Positions 6,990 to 19,270 of a DNA stretch of 22,969 nucleotides are shown here, one piece after another. A program made the position numbers and the translations under genes. The first letter of the stretch is position 1, and every line of letters begins with the position of its first letter. The notes under the pieces were generated by a model. It ran no database searches and was not told the origin of the DNA. It saw only the letters and a list, made by a program, of their open reading frames with translations. This stretch comes from a virus, in the IMG/VR virus record IMGVR_UViG_3300005617_000173, positions 1 through 22,969 of that record; one strand, written 5' to 3'.

Positions 6990-8027
6990 TTAGCTGACGG
7001 CGCTCTTGTTGTTCACGCCGACGATTCGGCCGTTCGCCTTCTCGTTCAGCACCTCCAGCGTCACTTCCCCGACCACGAGGCCAGCGACGGAGTCACCGCG
7101 CTTGCCCACGAGTTCGTGCGACATCGGACGGAGCCACGCGAGACGGTTGATCGCCCGCGACAGGAAGAACATCTGGCCGCCCGTGTTCGTCGCCGAACCG
7201 GTCGCGGTCGTGGTGTTCGTCGACTCGGGCACCCACCGATCGAGAACGATCTGGATGAGGCCGAAGTCACTGTCGTAGAAGTCGATCGCACCGACCAGCT
7301 TCTTGTCCACGGCCGCGATGTTGCGCGCGTGGGGGGTACCCGCCGCCGCTCCCGGAACCGTGAACGCACTGATCTGACGCTTCACCTTCGGGCTGACGTA
7401 CACCTGCTCGGGATTGCCACCCGCCGAGTAGATGCTGTTCAGCATCGAGTTGAAGTCGTACACGTCGACGATACCGTCGTGGGTCGCATCGGCGAGAGCA
7501 CCGGACGTACCGGCCGCACCCGCGAACGCGGAGTTCGTGGCGATGAAGGCCTGAAGACCCTTCATGACACGGCCACCCGCGCTGGACGACGTACCCGTCG
7601 AGGTCGTCAACTGACCGAACACGACCTTCTCCAGCTTGATCGCCAACTCCTTCGTGGCCTTCTGGACCTCGTAGGCGTAGCCGTCGGCGAAGCCGGCCGT
7701 ATCCACCGCGCGCTGGGACAGGGACATACCCACGTCCTTGCGGAGGATCATCGTGATGTTGAACTCACGGACCGGCGACACCTGCGTGTCGAGGGCCCAG
7801 TCAGCACCTTCCGCAGCGCCGGACAGGTCGGGCGTACCGAGCGTGTCCTTCAGCCACTGATGGTAGATGTGACGGCAACCAACCTTCGGAGCCTGCGACA
7901 CGAACGGCGTGTCGAAGGGCGAGATGTTGGTGATCTGCTCCAGCAAGTCCTCACGCGCGACACCGGACTTGAGGTCCGAGCCGTCGTACAGGTACGCGCC
8001 GAAGTTACCGGGGACTGCACCAGCCAT
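6990..8027 (-). CDS. Major capsid protein, SU10-like (DUF5309-type)
   Basis: A 345-residue protein with an ATG start. The order of features is that of the SU10/DUF5309 capsid family, which takes the HK97 fold. The N-terminus has ISPFDTPFVS (35-44) and a HQWLKDTL segment (56-63). It continues with REFNITMILRKDVGMSLSQRAVDTAG (87-112), an AYEVQKATKELAIKLEKVVF helix (118-137) and RVMKGLQAFIATN (153-165). After a variable loop come PEQVYVSPKVKRQISAF (206-222) and the C-terminal strands GLIQIVLDRWVP and GEVTLEVLNEKANGRI. It forms the icosahedral shell on the scaffold encoded just upstream. The leader carries a small hairpin (8040-8057), and a terminator follows the gene, so it is likely expressed at high level. 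Confident assignment. Confidence 0.9.
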   Translation of the reverse strand: MAGAVPGNFGAYLYDGSDLKSGVAREDLLEQITNISPFDTPFVSQAPKVGCRHIYHQWLKDTLGTPDLSGAAEGADWALDTQVSPVREFNITMILRKDVGMSLSQRAVDTAGFADGYAYEVQKATKELAIKLEKVVFGQLTTSTGTSSSAGGRVMKGLQAFIATNSAFAGAAGTSGALADATHDGIVDVYDFNSMLNSIYSAGGNPEQVYVSPKVKRQISAFTVPGAAAGTPHARNIAAVDKKLVGAIDFYDSDFGLIQIVLDRWVPESTNTTTATGSATNTGGQMFFLSRAINRLAWLRPMSHELVGKRGDSVAGLVVGEVTLEVLNEKANGRIVGVNNKSAVS

Positions 8028-9940: not shown

Positions 9941-10091
9941 CGGACACTTCCTTTCTGATGGTCGTCTTCAGCATCCGCCTCGCTGTGCGGTGCTGACGAT
10001 GCTTGTCCAGCCGATGGGATCGGCACATCCGACACCAGCAAGCCTTCCAGCCGAGACGGGCCCGGATGGTGGCTAGGTGGAGGTCCTTCAT
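9918..10091 (-). CDS. Tiny Cys/Arg-rich protein overlapping the portal stop
   Basis: A 57-codon frame whose ATG (10089-10091) overlaps the portal stop in an ATGA, and whose end overlaps the next gene by 23 bases. It fills the only gap in this part of the block, which supports it. The product is very basic: MKDLHLATIRARLGWKACWC, then RMCRSHRLDKHRQHRTARRM. C18, C20, C23, H26 and nearby His residues could bind one zinc ion, and the Arg-rich helix could bind nucleic acid. No RBS beyond GAAGGA-type bases near the start is clear; translation is likely coupled to the portal. It may also be a chance frame, since other frames here are open too. Confidence 0.45.
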   Translation of the reverse strand: MKDLHLATIRARLGWKACWCRMCRSHRLDKHRQHRTARRMLKTTIRKEVSDVRTERD

Positions 10092-12058
10092 CCGGCGACG
10101 GGTGCGAGGACGGAGCCGATGTCGACCGGCGCACGGAGCGACTGGGCCGAGCCCGGAGGGGCTGCGGCGTTGCCGCCCGGCATACCGGGGATGACAGACG
10201 GACCGCCGTTCGCGATCTGACCGGAGGTGGGGATGTTCGCAGCGCCGCCCGGCTGGGCCATCGCGCCTGCGAGAGCCGGGTTCGTGACCATGTTCTGGAG
10301 CGCGGGCTGCATGAACAGTTCGTTGATGTTCGGAACTTCGAAGACCCGGAACAGGTTCCGGAAGAAGTTGACCGAGTTGATCTGGCCCATCATCTGGGCA
10401 CCGAGCGGGGAAGCGAGGGCCTGAAGTAGCTGGAGCAGGTTCTGCTGCTGCATCTGCTTCGAGAGGCCCATCGTTGCACCGAGGGCGCGGGCGACGTAGC
10501 TGGGGTGCAGATCGTATGCGGTCAGCGTCTCGCGGGAGGCCGGGATCGGCATGTTCGTGACCGGGTCGAGCATCGCACCGTCACCGAGGATCATCACCTC
10601 GATGGGCGGAGCGAGGAACTGCTTCGACAGGGACGCGAAGAAGTTGGCCGTCGGCTCCAGCATGTTCTCTTCGTAGATGCGGGCCTCCAGCATGAGCCGG
10701 GTGCCCGCTGCCTCGCGCCTGCCGACGAACTCGCGTGCGGTCTGACGGCTGTCGCCGCCCATACCCTGCACTGCATCGTCGACAATGCCAGTACCCATCT
10801 GGAGGTACTCACGAATCTGACCGATCCGCGAGTCTGCGATGGAGAGGCCTTGGTTGTTGAACTGGAACGGCATGATGACCGAGGAGGGGTTGCCGTTGAC
10901 ACCGACGAAGCGACCCGGACGCGAGTAGAGGTTCCGGGTGTTGAGGCCGGAGGCTCGATCGAAGAACCACATCGGGTCGATCATCAGATCGGCCGCGTCG
11001 AGGCTCTGGTTCAGGTAGCGGTTGCCGGTGATCTGCAACTTCTCGACGATCTCGGCCTTGCCCGGGGCGAAGAAGTAGTGCGGGTCGGGCGTAGGCGAGT
11101 AGGCGACGAAGGGGATTTTCTTGTGGTTGTACGGGTTCGGCCGGTTACGCATCAGGTACTGCCGATTGGCGACAGTGATGACGCGATTGACCATGCCGTC
11201 GGTCGCGAACTCCGAGGGGACACGGCCCCAGAACTCCAGAATCTCGATCGGGCGCGAGTACTTGTCCATGAAGCGGGCAGTCTCGTCATCCATCGCGACG
11301 CGGGTCTGGAAGCGCCGCACTGCGGCGAGTGTCTCGGGTGATGCGGAACCGGAGCCGTCACGTTCGAGCCGGGCCAGTTCGGCCTTGTCGAAGGTGCCGA
11401 TCGAGGCGAGGTAGCGGAGGTCGTCGAGGTCGAGGAAGTACCGACGGACGAACCACTTCATGTCGCGCAGGCGGCCTACCGTCGGCTGCGGGAAGCAGTC
11501 GAGGAGGTCGAGGTTGATCGTCTCGGGGCCGTCGAAGGTGACGACCTTGCCCTTGCGGATGTGCTGCACGACCTTGCCCGACAGCGGCATCTTGTCGATC
11601 TGCTCGATGACGGTGTCTTCCTCGTCGCGCCGCCAGCCGACCTGAGCCACGCCCACGCCGTAGAGCGAGGCAGCGAGGATGATGTCGACCTGCTTGAGGA
11701 AGCCATCGTCGTCCTTGAACTGGGCCGCGACGAGCGATTCCTGCTTGCGGGCGATCTTCGAGTCGTCGGGGCCGTATCCGAGGAAGGAGACGGGCGGGTA
11801 CGAGGAGAGCGAAGAGGCCGCCATGCGGGAGGCGAAGGACCACAGGGCCGAGAAGATCAGCGGGATGTGGACGTTGTTCTTGTGGGGCGAGAAGCGGCCG
11901 TTCCACGTTCCGCGCCAGAGGTCATAGAGGCGGGGCAGCTTCTGCCGAATGCCCATGCTCTGTGACTCGGAGTACTGGACGCTGTCGACCACCATCTTGC
12001 AGAGTTGGCGGTTGAACAGGTAGCCAGCGGGCTCCTTCTCGATGGTCAGTGAGTTCAA
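10088..12058 (-). CDS. Portal protein (P22/SU10 type)
   Basis: A 656-residue protein starting at TTG (12056-12058), which overlaps the exonuclease stop as TTGA; GGAGG lies 7 bases upstream. It has the length of podovirus portals. Landmarks are LWRGTWNGRFSPHKNNVHIP (48-67) and a SALWSFASRMAASSL helix. Next come FKDDDGFLKQVDIILAASLY (114-133) and a KKIPFVAYSPTPDPHYFFAP segment. The stretch EIVEKLQITGNRYLNQSLDAAD follows, the long helix region of the crown and stem. Residues about 590-656 are Gly/Pro/Ala/Asn-rich and probably flexible. It forms the ring at one capsid vertex through which the terminase pumps DNA and to which the adaptor binds. Position and build agree; the exact subfamily is open. 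Confidence 0.85.
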   Translation of the reverse strand: MNSLTIEKEPAGYLFNRQLCKMVVDSVQYSESQSMGIRQKLPRLYDLWRGTWNGRFSPHKNNVHIPLIFSALWSFASRMAASSLSSYPPVSFLGYGPDDSKIARKQESLVAAQFKDDDGFLKQVDIILAASLYGVGVAQVGWRRDEEDTVIEQIDKMPLSGKVVQHIRKGKVVTFDGPETINLDLLDCFPQPTVGRLRDMKWFVRRYFLDLDDLRYLASIGTFDKAELARLERDGSGSASPETLAAVRRFQTRVAMDDETARFMDKYSRPIEILEFWGRVPSEFATDGMVNRVITVANRQYLMRNRPNPYNHKKIPFVAYSPTPDPHYFFAPGKAEIVEKLQITGNRYLNQSLDAADLMIDPMWFFDRASGLNTRNLYSRPGRFVGVNGNPSSVIMPFQFNNQGLSIADSRIGQIREYLQMGTGIVDDAVQGMGGDSRQTAREFVGRREAAGTRLMLEARIYEENMLEPTANFFASLSKQFLAPPIEVMILGDGAMLDPVTNMPIPASRETLTAYDLHPSYVARALGATMGLSKQMQQQNLLQLLQALASPLGAQMMGQINSVNFFRNLFRVFEVPNINELFMQPALQNMVTNPALAGAMAQPGGAANIPTSGQIANGGPSVIPGMPGGNAAAPPGSAQSLRAPVDIGSVLAPVAG

Positions 12059-12676: not shown

Positions 12677-14614
12677 CTAGCCTACAGGCTCGTACGGGAT
12701 GTAGTCGTCGCCCCAGTCGCCTCGGACGCCGTCGTCCATGAAGCCGTTCGCCCGTGCTTCGTCGCGATCGGCCAGCATCTGGAGGACTTCCTCGTTGGTG
12801 GGACGCCGTGCTATGGACTTGAGTTCCTGATCGCCCGGCGAGACGACGACAGCGCCCTCGTCCACCGCGTTGCCTCCTGAACCGAGGTTGGGCGGGAACC
12901 AGAGCTTCGAGATGAAGCCGTCGGCTTGAGCGTCAGCAAGGTCGTCGTGCGAGGCTGAATCAACCTTCAGAATCTGGTTGACCATCTTGTGGACGACCGG
13001 GTGAACGACGAAGTGGGGGCACTTGGTGGCCTCCATCGTCTTGGTAGCTGGGTTGTACTTGGGTGGAGGGCAGTCGCAGCGGGGACGGTCGAGCAGGATG
13101 CGGACATAGCCGGTGGCCCAGTGGCCGACGGCCGTACGGATGCGCGATCGCTTGTCCTTCTTGCGGTTCAACTGGATGAACCAGTCGTTGCCGAGTTGGT
13201 AGCCTGCGGAGCGCAGGAGACCGAGGACTCGGTTCTTGTAGGTGCCTTCCTTGCCGCCCGGCTCGACCTCGTCGGTGACGGCTTGGACCATGATGCCCCG
13301 GCGGCGCAGGTTACCGAAGACCTTGATGAGTTCGACGTTGAAGTCTTCCTCACGCCACTCGTTCGAGGCTTTCAGGTTCTGCGTGTCGAGGTAGAGGAGG
13401 CCGTTGTCCCGCTCGTCTGCGAGCCAGACCACGATGGCAGAGTCGTCGCCCTTGCCCATGTTGTCCTTGTTCTTGAAGGCCGTGTCGATGTGGATGGTGG
13501 CCCACTTCGGACGGACGTTCCAAGTGAAGTCGTCGTAGGACATGTACAGGTAGGGAATCTGCGACTCGACGAGCGGCGCGTGTTCCGATGCGCCCGGGTC
13601 GTTCTGCTGCTGGCAGGCGAAGTCTTCGGCGTCGATGCGCTTGGCATCGGCGATCGTCCGCTTCGTCCACAGCTTCGGGTGCGTGGGCTCGCCAGTGACG
13701 GGGTCTTCGGTCTGGTAGAAATAGACGTGCCAGACGCCCGCGCCCCATGCGACCTTCTCGGTCACGGAGGAGTAGTGCGGGCAGGGCATCCCATTCCACG
13801 AGGCGATTCCCTCTTCCTTGAAATGGCGGCCGGCGATGTCGTCTTCGAGGTAGCGGGTGAGCGTGAAGACGAGAAGGCCGTTTCGGTGGAGCGAGTTCTT
13901 CGAGGCCTTGACGCCGGCATGTGCAGCCCGAAGGTACGCCTCGCGTTCGTCGCGAATCTTGTTCGCTTCGAGCGGGTCGTCCCAGAAGACCGATCGCGGG
14001 TGATAGCCCGTTGAGCCGATGTTCGAGGTCGAGGTGTCGATCGAGGGCTCGCCGATGTTCTTGGCCGTCTTGCAGGCGTGGTTGATCGCTTCCTTCGTCT
14101 TGTCGGTCGCGCCTGCGACCCAGTCGCCATAGAGCCACGCGAACTGCGAGTCCTCGTCGGTCCCGGCCATCACGGAGATGAGGGACTTGAGGATGTCGCC
14201 GGACAGCTTGGAGGAGGCTGACTGGAGCAGGGTCGTCATGTTCCTGTCGAGGAGGTGCAGCCAGAGGATGGCCGACTTCTCGATCACGGTCTTGCCGTAT
14301 CCTCGGGGGAGGACGGAAGCGATCTTGTACTGCTCGGGGACTCCGGCGATGGCCCGCTCTCGCCACGAGAGGAGGTGGCCTTGGTACCAGCGAGCATACG
14401 GGTGATGGATGGGGTCGTAGAGCCACTGGGGCTCGGAGGGGTTGGACCGGAGGAAGGACTCGGCTCCCCAACCGCGCTTGATGAAGTACCAGAGGCTGTC
14501 AGGGTGCGTTCCCACATTTCCCGCACCGTCGTGCCACGCTTCCGGCGCACAGATCGCACGCCAGAGATCACGCTCCGCTTCCAACGCCCAACCTGTCTCA
14601 GCAGTCTGCGCCAT
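12677..14614 (-). CDS. terL: Terminase large subunit
   Basis: A 645-residue protein, the DNA-packaging motor. The N-terminal ATPase has Walker A as LPRGYGKTV (102-110), Walker B as SVFWDDP (208-214) and a coupling-motif-type TLTR (251-254). The C-terminal RNase-H-like nuclease has IHIDTAF (375-380, D377), a second acidic site near D390/D391 (GDDSAIVVW), and SHDDLADAQADG (555-566). Between these nuclease motifs there is a Cys/His-rich insert (C513, C515, C532, H534) that could bind zinc. The ATG at 14612-14614 has GGGAG upstream but lies inside the upstream ORF. Residues about 1-40 have a less G/C-rich third position than the rest. A later start, for example a GTG at residue 34, is possible. 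Functional call is strong. Confidence 0.92.
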   Translation of the reverse strand: MAQTAETGWALEAERDLWRAICAPEAWHDGAGNVGTHPDSLWYFIKRGWGAESFLRSNPSEPQWLYDPIHHPYARWYQGHLLSWRERAIAGVPEQYKIASVLPRGYGKTVIEKSAILWLHLLDRNMTTLLQSASSKLSGDILKSLISVMAGTDEDSQFAWLYGDWVAGATDKTKEAINHACKTAKNIGEPSIDTSTSNIGSTGYHPRSVFWDDPLEANKIRDEREAYLRAAHAGVKASKNSLHRNGLLVFTLTRYLEDDIAGRHFKEEGIASWNGMPCPHYSSVTEKVAWGAGVWHVYFYQTEDPVTGEPTHPKLWTKRTIADAKRIDAEDFACQQQNDPGASEHAPLVESQIPYLYMSYDDFTWNVRPKWATIHIDTAFKNKDNMGKGDDSAIVVWLADERDNGLLYLDTQNLKASNEWREEDFNVELIKVFGNLRRRGIMVQAVTDEVEPGGKEGTYKNRVLGLLRSAGYQLGNDWFIQLNRKKDKRSRIRTAVGHWATGYVRILLDRPRCDCPPPKYNPATKTMEATKCPHFVVHPVVHKMVNQILKVDSASHDDLADAQADGFISKLWFPPNLGSGGNAVDEGAVVVSPGDQELKSIARRPTNEEVLQMLADRDEARANGFMDDGVRGDWGDDYIPYEPVG

Positions 14615-16379: not shown

Positions 16380-16790
16380 TCACTCGACGCCGTCCTTTCT
16401 GTCGGACTCCCGCAGCTTCCGGTCGATGATCTCGGTCCAGAGATGCAGGCGCTTGGGTGACTTGCGGACGTAGGCCGTGACGACCTTGTCCATGGCGAGG
16501 ATCACGTACTCTTCCATCTCGTCGGTCAGCCAGCCGAGGCACATCGGCATCAGGATGACGTGGAGCAGTTCGTGGACGACGGTCCCGATGTGATCGATGC
16601 CGTCGGCGGTCTGCTGGTTGGCGTCGACCTTGATCTGGATGTTGGTCGGCGGGAAGAGGTCGTCCCAGACGCACAGGCCCTGCTGGGCCTTCATCGGGGT
16701 GTAGCGGAGGGTGACTTCAGGGTGCTGGAGTAGCTCCAGACACGTCCGGTGCAGCTTCGGGAGGTTGAGGGGGTACTTGCCGCCCTTCAT
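16380..16790 (-). CDS. HExxH metallopeptidase-like protein
   Basis: A 136-residue protein. The ATG at 16788-16790 (MKGGKYPLNL) has GAGGT upstream at 5-base spacing. A TTG start six codons earlier (16808) exists but has a poorer site. The motif VVHELLHVIL (H73, E74, H77) is a zinc-protease signature, and E93 or E94 (DEMEEYV) could be the third ligand. This resembles SprT-like or ImmA-like folds, but the gene is short. It may be a peptidase, or a zinc-binding protein without activity. Its start overlaps the end of the terminase-small candidate by 74 bases. The role in a packaging block is unclear; such genes are sometimes placed there in environmental phages. Confidence 0.65.
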   Translation of the reverse strand: MKGGKYPLNLPKLHRTCLELLQHPEVTLRYTPMKAQQGLCVWDDLFPPTNIQIKVDANQQTADGIDHIGTVVHELLHVILMPMCLGWLTDEMEEYVILAMDKVVTAYVRKSPKRLHLWTEIIDRKLRESDRKDGVE

Positions 16791-17337
16791 CGGATACCTC
16801 GAAAGCAAGATGGAGAGCCGCTGTGGTCACCTTGGCCCCAGCAGCGATCATGAGGTCGGCCATCCTGCGGGAGGCCGCCTCGAAGGTCATGGGGGCACGA
16901 GGGCCCAGTTGCTTCTCCCGCTGCCTCTCCTTCAGCTTCGCCCACATCTGCGAGGCAGACATGCGGGTGTCGGGATGGAGGTTCGGGTCGAAGGCGAAGC
17001 GGATGCACTGCTTCAGCATCGCGGACGAGACCTGCTCGTCGGTCGCCTTGTCGTCTGTCAGGGCTGCCATGTCGGCGATCGCCTGCATGGCCGTGTGGTC
17101 CAGCATCTGGGCCGGCGGGGTCGGAGATTCGACCAGCGGGGCCGTCGGCTTGGGGGCGGGGGCGGTCTTCCGGGTGGAGCGGCCGACAGTGAGGAGCCCT
17201 TCGGCGACCAGTTCCCGGCGCACGAGGGAGATCAGGGGCTCGGAGCAGTCGGCTCCCATGGCCTGTTCCTTGATCGACTCGTCCTTGTGGGCGAGGATGT
17301 ACTCCCGGGCCCGTTCCTTTCGTGTCTGAGGAGCCAT
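16717..17337 (-). CDS. Candidate terminase small subunit
   Basis: A 206-residue protein and the first gene of the leftward block. The N-terminal 50 residues fit a helix-turn-helix (EYILAHKDESIKEQAMG, then SEPLISLVRRELVAEGLLTV). A Pro/Ala linker follows (57-77). A helical region (80-185) contains MSASQMWAKLKERQREKQL and FEAASRRMADLMIAAG, suitable for forming the ring of a terminase small subunit. The C-terminal tail is Pro/Ala-rich. The ATG is 13-14 bases from the GAAAGGAGG sequence, which is a little far. The gene order (this gene, then others, then terL) and the HTH support the call. A different DNA-binding regulator is possible. Confidence 0.55.
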   Translation of the reverse strand: MAPQTRKERAREYILAHKDESIKEQAMGADCSEPLISLVRRELVAEGLLTVGRSTRKTAPAPKPTAPLVESPTPPAQMLDHTAMQAIADMAALTDDKATDEQVSSAMLKQCIRFAFDPNLHPDTRMSASQMWAKLKERQREKQLGPRAPMTFEAASRRMADLMIAAGAKVTTAALHLAFEVSDEGRQVPPQPPEAAPDVSGATPAP

Positions 17338-17528
17338 AAGTTCTGGTAGGCCCTCCTTTCATCCGGTAAGTGTGGGCCCAGCACAGGGCAACGGCGGAAC
17401 GCACACGCGCGTTTACGGTGGCTGCCTCGCTGGTTCCGGACCCCTGTTATAGAGGTCCACGTTTTTCTGCGATCCGGGTGCTGCGTACAACTTCCTGACA
17501 ACTTTTGGGGTCTGTCCGGGGCCCCACT
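17338..17528. other. Leader of the leftward block, weak promoter signs
   Basis: This non-coding strip lies before the terminase-small candidate. The leftward Shine-Dalgarno sequence is at 17351-17361. A palindrome (17438-17458) surrounds a leftward TATAAC (17446-17451) that could be a -10 box, but no good -35 box is seen at the right distance. A direct repeat ACAACTT occurs at 17487 and 17498. No gene was found. Confidence 0.35.
17438..17458. promoter_or_regulatory. Palindrome over a leftward TATAAC
   Basis: The sequence GGACCCCT - GTTAT - AGAGGTCC is an 8-bp inverted repeat with one mismatch. Read leftward it contains TATAAC. It could be an operator on the late-gene promoter, or a hairpin in a leader transcript. 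Inference from symmetry and position only. Confidence 0.3.
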
Positions 17529-17544
17529 TGGCACGAACCTTGCT
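17529..17544 (+). promoter_or_regulatory. Sigma-54-like -24/-12 element 1
   Basis: TGGCAC - GAACC - TTGCT. It matches the sigma-54 consensus TGGCAC-N5-TTGCW exactly, with the GG-N10-GC core. Orientation is rightward. Element 2 starts 25 bases downstream. Confidence 0.55.
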
Positions 17545-17553
17545 AGCGCCCGT

Positions 17554-17569
17554 TGGCACGCTCCTTGCG
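17554..17569 (+). promoter_or_regulatory. Sigma-54-like -24/-12 element 2
   Basis: TGGCAC - GCTCC - TTGCG. Identical to the consensus except the last base. The palindrome GCATG-AAC-CATGC follows directly (17573-17585). Confidence 0.55.
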
Positions 17570-17674
17570 ATAGCATGAACCATGCCAACACGTTAGCCCC
17601 ACGCGCCTATGCAAGCGCCATGCCAGCCCGAGGCGATGTTCCACTCTGCAACAGCACGGGGTACGTACATAGCA

Positions 17675-17690
17675 TGGCACACTTCTTGCT
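17675..17690 (+). promoter_or_regulatory. Sigma-54-like -24/-12 element 3
   Basis: TGGCAC - ACTTC - TTGCT, an exact match to the consensus, rightward. No gene start follows within 1.3 kb, so if it is a promoter it makes a long leader or a non-coding RNA. Confidence 0.5.
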
Positions 17691-17762
17691 CCAAGTGTGA
17701 CGCCGGACGCAACTTTCGGACCAACGCGGCATCGGAGCGTGTCAAGAATGCAAGCGACAGGT

Positions 17763-17778
17763 TGGCACATTCCTTGCA
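17763..17778 (+). promoter_or_regulatory. Sigma-54-like -24/-12 element 4
   Basis: TGGCAC - ATTCC - TTGCA, an exact match, rightward, preceded by a T as in elements 1 and 2. It is 88 bases from element 3. The first copy of the 78-bp repeat begins about 40 bases after it. Confidence 0.5.
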
Positions 17779-17819
17779 TGGCCCCCGTTGCGTGCGTTCC
17801 ATTCTGAAACACCACCAGC

Positions 17820-17899
17820 GTAAGCCCTTGCGCCTCAGTGAGTTACGCCGGAACGCTCCCACGCTTCCAAGGATGCCCTACAATCGCGTCGACCCCCCT
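17820..17899 (+). repeat. Diverged 78-bp direct repeat, copy A
   Basis: It begins TAAGCCCTTG and shares with copy B the blocks CGCTCCCA, CAAGGATGCCC and AATCGCGTCG in the same order and nearly the same spacing. It contains the weaker CAGTGAGTTACG form of the second motif family. The copies have diverged by substitutions and small indels; no shared reading frame was found. Confidence 0.6.
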
Positions 17900-18015
17900 C
17901 CGAGGGTGTCCGTACTACCCCCTGTGTCAAGCCCTTGTCCCCCAACGACTTGACATTTAGATTGGCGCAGGCTGGCGGGCCATCTTCCTGTCCAGCCTTC
18001 GTCAGGCCGTTGTCA

Positions 18016-18031
18016 CGGCACGGCTCTTGCT
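18016..18031 (+). promoter_or_regulatory. Sigma-54-like -24/-12 element 5
   Basis: CGGCAC - GGCTC - TTGCT, one mismatch to the consensus (C for the first T), with the GG and GC core kept. It is followed by GCATG-TTC-CATGC (18038-18050), the same palindrome type as after element 2. Confidence 0.45.
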
Positions 18032-18058
18032 CCCCAGCATGTTCCATGCCACCGACAC

Positions 18059-18074
18059 TGGCACGATACTTGCC
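18059..18074 (+). promoter_or_regulatory. Sigma-54-like -24/-12 element 6
   Basis: TGGCAC - GATAC - TTGCC, the consensus apart from its last base, rightward. The G after TGGCAC is also part of the extended sigma-54 consensus. It starts 43 bases after element 5. Confidence 0.5.
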
Positions 18075-18137
18075 ACGCGCGCGCGTTCCTTTAGATTGGC
18101 GCTCGCCGGCCCGGACCGCCCTCCCGGCCTGCCCGCC

Positions 18138-18214
18138 TAAGCCCTTGAGCCGCAACACGTTAGGCGATTCGCTCCCAGACGCTCAAGGATGCCCCAGAAT
18201 CGCGTCGGACCCCT
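18138..18214 (+). repeat. Diverged 78-bp direct repeat, copy B
   Basis: Same order of blocks as copy A: TAAGCCCTTG, CGCTCCCA, CAAGGATGCCC, AATCGCGTCG. It carries a full CAACACGTTAG motif. A separate 13-bp exact repeat, TTTAGATTGGCGC, occurs upstream at 17956-17968 and 18090-18102, so the region appears to have grown by duplication. Confidence 0.6.
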
Positions 18215-18453
18215 CGCAAGTCCTACCCTACTCGGGAAAAACCTAAGTCTGTACAGGCCAACGAGTTACAGGCGCGCGTCCCGCAGGAACGGAGGCCTGC
18301 TAGGGCCATCCAGTTGTGCAGTTGACCACATGGAATCGTCAAGGATTCGCCATCTGCAATACCTGCGCGGCGGGCGCTCATTGTGGCACAACGACTTACG
18401 GGCTCGTGCGGGATGCCCCACGGTTTGAGGCTTTTCGCCCTGTTTTCGGCCAT

Positions 18454-18467
18454 CGCCTCGTGAGGCG
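18454..18467. promoter_or_regulatory. Short palindrome CGCCTC-GT-GAGGCG
   Basis: A perfect 6-bp inverted repeat with a 2-base centre lies 7 bases before the last CAAC-N3-TTA site and about 26 bases before sigma-54-like element 7. Its centre is too short for a stable hairpin, so a dimeric protein binding site is the likelier reading. Confidence 0.3.
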
Positions 18468-18493
18468 TCGTTGCGGCACAACGAGTTAGCTCG

Positions 18494-18509
18494 TGGCACA
18501 GCGATTGCA
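18494..18509 (+). promoter_or_regulatory. Sigma-54-like -24/-12 element 7
   Basis: TGGCAC - AGCGA - TTGCA, an exact match and the copy nearest to the rightward genes. Transcription from it would start near 18520, leaving a leader of about 560 bases before the first gene at 19082. Directly upstream sits a CGGCACAACGAGTTAGC element of the second motif family. Confidence 0.55.
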
Positions 18510-19081
18510 CTGTACGTTGGTGCAGCACGGTCCGCCTCCCGACGAGGCGGCGCGACACCGAAACGCACCGACGCCTGACCCGCCCGAGAGCCTCCTCCGG
18601 ACGACGACGGGATGGCGCACGGCCGGCCCCACAGCGGGCACCGCGACAGCGCGGCAGACGGTGGAGCGACAGGCGGAGCAGGGGATAGGCCACAAGCCCG
18701 CGTCACGCGAGCCGCCACGGCCTGCCGCCCAGACATCTGAACGAGACCGCACCCGGACCGCCATAGAGCGGACGCCGTGACGGCCCACCACGCACCAGCA
18801 GTGACCGCACCTTGTAGAGCCCCTCGGGGACAGTGAAGACGAGGCGGTCAAGCGCGTGACATCGGGGCCAGAGCGAAGCGCCAGAGCGCCACCCGGATGC
18901 CTGTTCTCGCGACGCCGTACACCGTGCTCCAATGTGGGCGCGGGCCCCAAGGTCAGCCTCAAGAGCACGCCGTGCGATGGCACGAGCCGCTCACCGGACC
19001 CCACTGCCCGCGCCCGGTCGCCTGCTTCAGTGGCAGGCCTGAAGAGCCCACAAGGGCGAAACCACAACCGGGAGAACCGCC
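18510..19081. other. Non-coding leader before rightward genes
   Basis: No convincing gene, tRNA or terminator is seen here. Frames are open because of the high GC, but they read as Arg/Pro-rich sequence without a ribosome-binding site. A CTTCAG-TGGCAGGC-CTGAAG inverted repeat lies at 19026-19045. Its first part (CTTCAGTGGCAG) recurs exactly at 19314-19325, on the far side of the first gene. Confidence 0.4.
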
Positions 19082-19270
19082 ATGCAGAACGTCACCGTGA
19101 CCGTCAAGGGCAACATCGCGACCATCACCGTCGACCTGTCGCAGGACCACGGGCCGAGCGCGTCGGGCAAGACGAACATCGTCGCGTCGACGCACGGCAA
19201 CGTGCTCATCCCCGGCAGCGACGTCACCCTCGGCCTGAACGCCTACCGCAAGGCGCGCAAGGCCGCCTGA
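19082..19270 (+). CDS. Conserved small phage protein (GPSASGKT type)
   Basis: A 62-residue protein with ATG start and GGGAG 7 bases upstream. It begins with two beta strands (NVTVTVKGNIATITVDL), then GPSASGKTNIVASTHGNV and the end GLNAYRKARKAA. Short proteins with this same layout ('ITVDLs...GpS.SGKt..vAST.GNv...GlNvYrk') are common in phages of several groups; their function is unknown. The SGKT is not a P-loop, since no nucleotide-binding fold can fit. It is the first gene of the rightward train and sits between two copies of a 12-bp repeat. Confidence 0.8.
   Translation: MQNVTVTVKGNIATITVDLSQDHGPSASGKTNIVASTHGNVLIPGSDVTLGLNAYRKARKAA

Follow-up and report, generated by a model that had tools for sequence, protein, structure and literature searches.

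A conserved array of sigma-54-type sites, with face-to-face pairs, in the divergent control region of a soil phage

Why does a podophage carry, between two divergent sets of genes, a dense cluster of elements resembling promoters of the host factor sigma-54 (RpoN), and what binds them? The question was raised by the window, i.e., the whole stretch of 22,969 nucleotides analyzed here (IMG/VR record IMGVR_UViG_3300005617_000173). It comes from the genome of an SU10-type podophage: the genes for capsid, portal, adaptor, and terminase are oriented leftward, and small rightward genes lie beyond a 1.74-kb gap. Its capsid, portal, and adaptor proteins belong to the same families as those of SU10/phiEco32-type podophages; however, the capsid protein is only 25-34% identical to those of the phage records among the matches listed. 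A nucleotide search for isolate relatives, using the window region and three other array contigs, gave no useful match. The same phage is also represented by contigs G002 (57,353 bases) and G001 (24,548 bases), whose sites are identical. The remainder of G002 encodes an AAA protein, RtcB, an RNA ligase, ThyX, and glycosyl- and aminotransferases. It also contains, at 51304-51771 (17305-17772 of L015), a 155-aa ORF whose C-terminal part resembles the first ~45 positions of PF17236 (E 1e-7), a partial copy of the start of the capsid gene at a distance from that gene.

The site array and its setting

Judging by the ORF list and codon-position GC, the gap holds no convincing ORF (Table 1). We found in it neither a terminator nor a usual sigma-70 promoter, the one sigma-70-like match being weak; known RNA elements were rejected, as the gap matched none in Rfam. 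The helix-turn-helix protein encoded by the adjoining leftward gene is possibly the terminase small subunit. Two repeats were also seen in the gap: a block of ~80 bases recurring 316 bases apart (window positions 17815-17897 and 18132-18213), and TTTAGATTGGCGC at 17956 and, 134 bases further, at 18090.

The preliminary description had reported seven rightward copies of the element. A pattern search of the window with YGGCAC-N5-TTGC recovered all seven, between 17529 and 18508 on the plus strand, while dinucleotide shuffles of the window predicted 0.14 copies and none of 100 shuffles reached seven. The four exact TGGCAC-N5-TTGCW matches were likewise found, and the search bore out the impression, gained by eye, that the window holds no further exact copy. 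That all copies point rightward is true of the strict pattern but not of its near-copies: relaxing the search to TGGCAT and WTGC added three leftward copies (TGGCAT-N5-WTGC) inside the array, giving ten in total. GG at -24 and GC at -12, at fixed spacing, are present in 10 of the 10 sites. We further scored the gap against a 17-mer reference consensus, YTGGCACGRNNNTTGCW, with GG and GC held fixed in the mismatch count. At up to one, two, and three mismatches, the gap contained 3, 8, and 11 sites, as compared to shuffle means of 0.01, 0.06, and 0.53; the shuffle maximum at up to two mismatches was 2. In a search of the whole contig G002, all nine TGGCAY-N5-WTGC matches (six on the plus and three on the minus strand) fell within the ~1-kb array region, and a reversed control pattern matched once.

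Table 1. Coordinates of the control region, its sites, and the neighboring genes in the window
Feature	Positions	Strand	Remarks
SU10-type major capsid protein	6990-8027	-	PF17236, E 2e-63
SU10-type portal protein	10088-12058	-	PF23899, E 1e-29
Terminase large subunit	12677-14614	-	PHROG 38, E 8e-29
First leftward gene, 206-aa helix-turn-helix protein	16717-17337	-	Adjoins control region, also in relatives
Divergent control region	17338-19081		Leftward and rightward genes on either side; from ORF list and codon-position GC
Site 1, TGGCACGAACCTTGC	17529-17543	+	17528-17544 has 0 mismatches to YTGGCACGRNNNTTGCW
Site 2, TGGCACGCTCCTTGC	17554-17568	+	Plus half of face-to-face pair A
Leftward site, TGGCATGGTTCATGC	17573-17587	-	Minus half of pair A; aimed at packaging/structural operon
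Leftward site, TGGCATGGCGCTTGC	17611-17625	-	1 mismatch to 17-mer consensus
Site 3, TGGCACACTTCTTGC	17675-17689	+	
Site 4, TGGCACATTCCTTGC	17763-17777	+	
Site 5, CGGCACGGCTCTTGC	18016-18030	+	CGGCAC copy; plus half of pair B
Leftward site, TGGCATGGAACATGC	18037-18051	-	Minus half of pair B
Site 6, TGGCACGATACTTGC	18059-18073	+	
Companion element, second copy, ATTGTGGCACAACGACTTACG	18380-18400	+	Without sigma-54-type site
Companion element, GTTGCGGCACAACGAGTTAGC	18470-18490	+	Directly upstream of site 7; position shared by most relatives
Site 7, TGGCACAGCGATTGC followed by ACTG	18494-18508	+	Last rightward site; in relatives TGGCACR-N5-TGCACTR
First likely rightward gene, 62 aa, no assigned function	19082-19270	+	Third-position GC 0.98

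Pairs A and B are spaced 19 and 21 bp, respectively, from start to start. The earlier picture of a purely rightward array tied to the rightward genes was not upheld, because leftward copies pair face-to-face with rightward ones and are aimed at the packaging/structural operon. The distance to the leftward gene is ~235-275 bases for the first two leftward sites; site 7 lies ~570 bases from the first rightward gene. Apart from its two main copies, the companion element has weaker copies near 17586, 17943, 18153, and 18259; the one at 18470 is only a candidate for an activator (enhancer) site.

Relatives and distribution among viruses

A capsid search gathered 68 loci. Whole-contig pattern searches revealed clustered sites in many of them, with almost no control matches. 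Twelve relatives carry sites past the start of the helix-turn-helix gene, in the same gap; one relative of lower GC, L164, in which the region is present (GC 0.44 there), has no site. Most of the 12 relatives contain a face-to-face pair at 19-23 bp, with the leftward member aimed at the helix-turn-helix gene. The last rightward site reads TGGCAY-N6-TGCACT or TGCACAG in every relative with a long enough region, and most of these have the companion element GTTGYRGCRCAACGASTTAGC ahead of it. A pattern-free count of gapped tetramers across the 12 control regions ranked GCAA-N6-TGCC, which is the core of the same element, first; it was counted 31 times, and the leading pair of the Markov sets 9-17 times. 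The recognition helix of the adjacent helix-turn-helix protein varies among the relatives, whereas the layout of the sites is kept. We also noticed that six soil contigs (G001, G003, G005, G016, G021, and G045) end inside or within ~1 kb of the array, which may reflect genome ends or strain variation there.

Searches of IMG/VR retrieved at least 120 stretches with face-to-face pairs, versus 2 for the mirrored control, and at least 120 with tandem pairs, these lower bounds counting stretches that include clusters of near relatives rather than independent lineages. The face-to-face pattern matched only 36 times in 257 Gb of bacterial and archaeal genomes; almost all of these matches stand alone, and their spacing is scattered. 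In viral loci, the face-to-face spacing is sharply 18-22 bp. Many tandem pairs in viral loci are spaced 26-28 bp and many back-to-back pairs 25 or 35 bp, and some arrays alternate strictly in orientation over up to nine sites. In a large marine group, the array lies a few hundred bases upstream of the terminase genes, and sites were also found in contigs as long as 236 and 480 kb. Arrays are common in tailed phages and, within the data searched, face-to-face sigma-54 boxes are a phage speciality. Two contigs, L052/G066 (147.5 kb) and L055/G068, have 22-26 sigma-54-type sites, many of which are gathered in a single run of small genes. Sigma-70-family proteins are also encoded by three viral contigs that bear arrays, G107, G108, and G093 (61.7, 68.4, and 480.8 kb), showing that sigma-54-type sites and a phage sigma factor can coexist.

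The clearest placement relative to genes was found in an unrelated phage, G100. It contains nine TGGCAY-N6-TGCAT sites in the sense orientation, shortly before genes and followed by A+T-rich DNA; for 8 of the 9, a likely ribosome site and an ATG lie within the 60 bases shown. A second set of sites, with TTGCTA ends, is antisense and located 80-155 bp upstream of several promoter-like sites. This layout is the most direct case of promoter-like use of the element, and it also shows that some copies are not simple sense promoters. Across other phages, intergenic sites were sense in 27 cases versus antisense in 33, rough counts given that the gene calls came from a crude ORF method. In the Pseudomonas aeruginosa phage Ab02 (Pakpunavirus), a non-coding gap of 0.6 kb and the terminal repeat of 1.2 kb together contain 8 of 9 sites. 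Plain same-direction promoters were rejected as a full account of the sites, given the leftward and antisense copies.

What binds the sites

The published sigma-54 consensus is YTGGCACGrNNNTTGCW (PMC13207237). Outside the searched pattern, our logo of sites from relatives and arrays has G at position 7 in 76-79% of sites, Y before TGG in 71-79%, and A/T after GC in 77-92%; the non-searched positions on both sides of the core thus fit the consensus. The 15-mer of site 1 is a predicted RpoN site in Bradyrhizobium, and that of site 2 is listed there for nif11 (PMC13207237). The phage sites therefore resemble bacterial RpoN -24/-12 promoters in their full-length consensus and strict spacing, with two cores equal to Bradyrhizobium sites; they differ in that the phage gap holds up to ten copies and face-to-face pairs at 18-22 bp. 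To our knowledge, sigma-54 is the only factor with this consensus. A conserved host factor is the simplest binder, since the site is asymmetric and recurs in unrelated phages while the helix-turn-helix protein varies. On the sequence evidence, we put at about 0.6 the probability that the sites serve sigma-54-bearing host RNA polymerase as promoters, including bidirectional units that would serve both operons. The sigma-54 part of the preliminary description is thus favored by the consensus at unsearched positions, the restriction to the control region, the relatives, and the promoter-core placement in G100. The pattern-free tetramer count, the spacing of the pairs, the lack of ordinary sigma-70 promoters in the control region, the placement of the Ab02 sites, and the annotated promoters of phage YuA (see below) speak for it as well. 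On the other side, alternating arrays and upstream antisense sites are unusual for promoters, and we identified no enhancer site for a sigma-54 activator. The near-equal numbers of sense and antisense sites, the ~570 bases beyond site 7, the site-free relative L164, and the failure to find a sigma-54 or activator gene in G002 and 49 other site-bearing records also count against it.

The main rival is an operator array in which dimers of a phage-encoded DNA-binding protein, e.g., the adjacent helix-turn-helix protein or another phage regulator, occupy the pseudo-palindrome GCAMR-N3-YWTGC. Joint occupation of face-to-face pairs, at a distance of two helical turns, would then switch both operons. 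The pseudo-palindromic core, the regular spacing of ~2 or 2.5 helical turns, the alternating orientation, the antisense upstream sites in several phages, and the presence of a helix-turn-helix gene next to the region throughout the soil group all speak for it. However, the site is no true palindrome, with TGG at one end and GC plus A/T at the other, and phages whose genes are unrelated share the same 17-base logo, a sign that the binder comes from the host. The recognition helix of the adjacent protein varies while the site stays constant, and on this ground we rejected that protein as the binder. Overall, we consider an operator array unlikely. Hairpins or N4-like promoters were discarded, as the spacer bases within the pairs show no complementarity.

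It is quite improbable that the sites, lying at a genome end or close to one, are the iterons of a replication origin or the pac sites used by terminase. The possible terminase small-subunit gene next to the region, the marine arrays upstream of terminase genes, the sites within the Ab02 terminal repeat, and the six soil contigs ending in or near the array would fit this, but other phages have sites scattered between genes, and neither function explains the nine promoter-core placements in G100. There is also only a slim chance that a phage-encoded sigma factor or polymerase with a sigma-54-like preference uses the sites as its own promoters. The phiEco32-like phages have their own sigma factors, with other promoters, and Sigma70-region-2 domains occur in G107, G108, and G093; however, G002 gave no match to the Sigma70_r2 or Sigma70_r4_2 profiles, and the Sigma54_DBD profile found nothing above cut-off in G002 and 49 other site-bearing records. 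We know of no sigma-70-family factor with this exact 17-base consensus. A search with RNA_pol (PF00940) carries no weight, as its controls were silent. Finally, a chance cluster in GC-rich non-coding DNA has the simplicity of the motif in its favor and nothing else. It is refuted by the shuffles (7 copies versus 0.14 expected), by the layout kept in relatives, and by the top rank in the unbiased count, and we give it practically no credence.

A possible bidirectional promoter and its precedents

Under the preferred sigma-54 reading, the -24/-12 cores would bind host RNA polymerase with sigma-54 (RpoN) and make up a control region from which the packaging/structural operon is read leftward and the other genes rightward. 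Transcription from pair A would enter the leftward operon and, in the opposite direction, the array, while site 7 together with the companion element would start the rightward genes. Placing the predicted +1 12 bp after the C of the -12 element makes the start separation 38 minus the pair spacing; the face-to-face pairs at 19-21 bp would therefore have diverging starts 17-19 bp apart. In bidirectional sigma-70 promoters, the commonest separation of start points is 18 bp (PMC12825309). These pseudo-symmetric promoters share with the phage pairs the opposed cores and the diverging starts ~18 bp apart (predicted for the phage); in contrast, the phage cores are of sigma-54 type, and PMC12825309 does not contain the term sigma54. 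The sequences have the spacing of a bidirectional promoter, at mostly 18-22 bp in array loci and 19-23 bp in the soil relatives. Because the predicted separation is close to that of the sigma-70 promoters, the pairs may be bidirectional sigma-54 promoters.

The genes normally under sigma-54 control are those for nitrogen, motility, and stress, and the factor does not fire without an activator. Promoter opening in the phage would thus need an activator ATPase (enhancer-binding protein), presumably that of the host, since none was recognizable in the phage: the activator profile PF00158 had no match in G002 or 49 other site-bearing records. Spare sites may keep polymerase waiting in closed complexes, titrate it, or soak up sigma-54. 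The sites, their full-length consensus, their confinement to this region, the conserved layout and pair spacing, and the promoter-like placement in G100 are observed; in this scheme, we infer the sigma-54 binder, the firing direction, the activator, and the timing. We tentatively propose, as somewhat less probable than not, that a mirror pair ~20 bp apart, occurring singly or in arrays, is a virus-specific, activator-gated bidirectional promoter or polymerase sink that ties expression in many unrelated tailed phages to host sigma-54 signaling. The data suggest an unnoticed route by which phages hitch their genes to host sigma-54. If phages use sigma-54 broadly, the course of infection would be coupled to host physiology, which raises the question of which activator gives the signal. 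The face-to-face boxes predict two diverging starts ~18 bp apart, and the element could be used to search for phages whose hosts carry rpoN.

For tailed phages, the annotation of YuA already records sigma-54 promoters. In the papers searched, we found no report of arrays or mirror pairs, nor a description of bidirectional sigma-54 promoters as a class; the conserved arrays and mirror pairs look new. The YuA promoters reportedly depend on host rpoN, a result attributed to Ceyssens et al. in 2008. The GenBank entry of YuA (NC_010116) annotates three "-24/-12" promoters in the structural-gene region. YuA (Yuavirus) is thus likewise a tailed phage with annotated -24/-12 promoters; however, these are three separate promoters with another motif and no array. 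None of them matched TGGCAY-N6-TGC, and YuA was rejected as a motif match, so the precedent backs the idea and not the motif. YuA also contains five 28-base repeats beginning CTTTACTTCTTCGG (at 7722, 10500, 22639, 29058, and 31098), which the annotation describes as sigma-70 promoters dependent on a cofactor from the phage.
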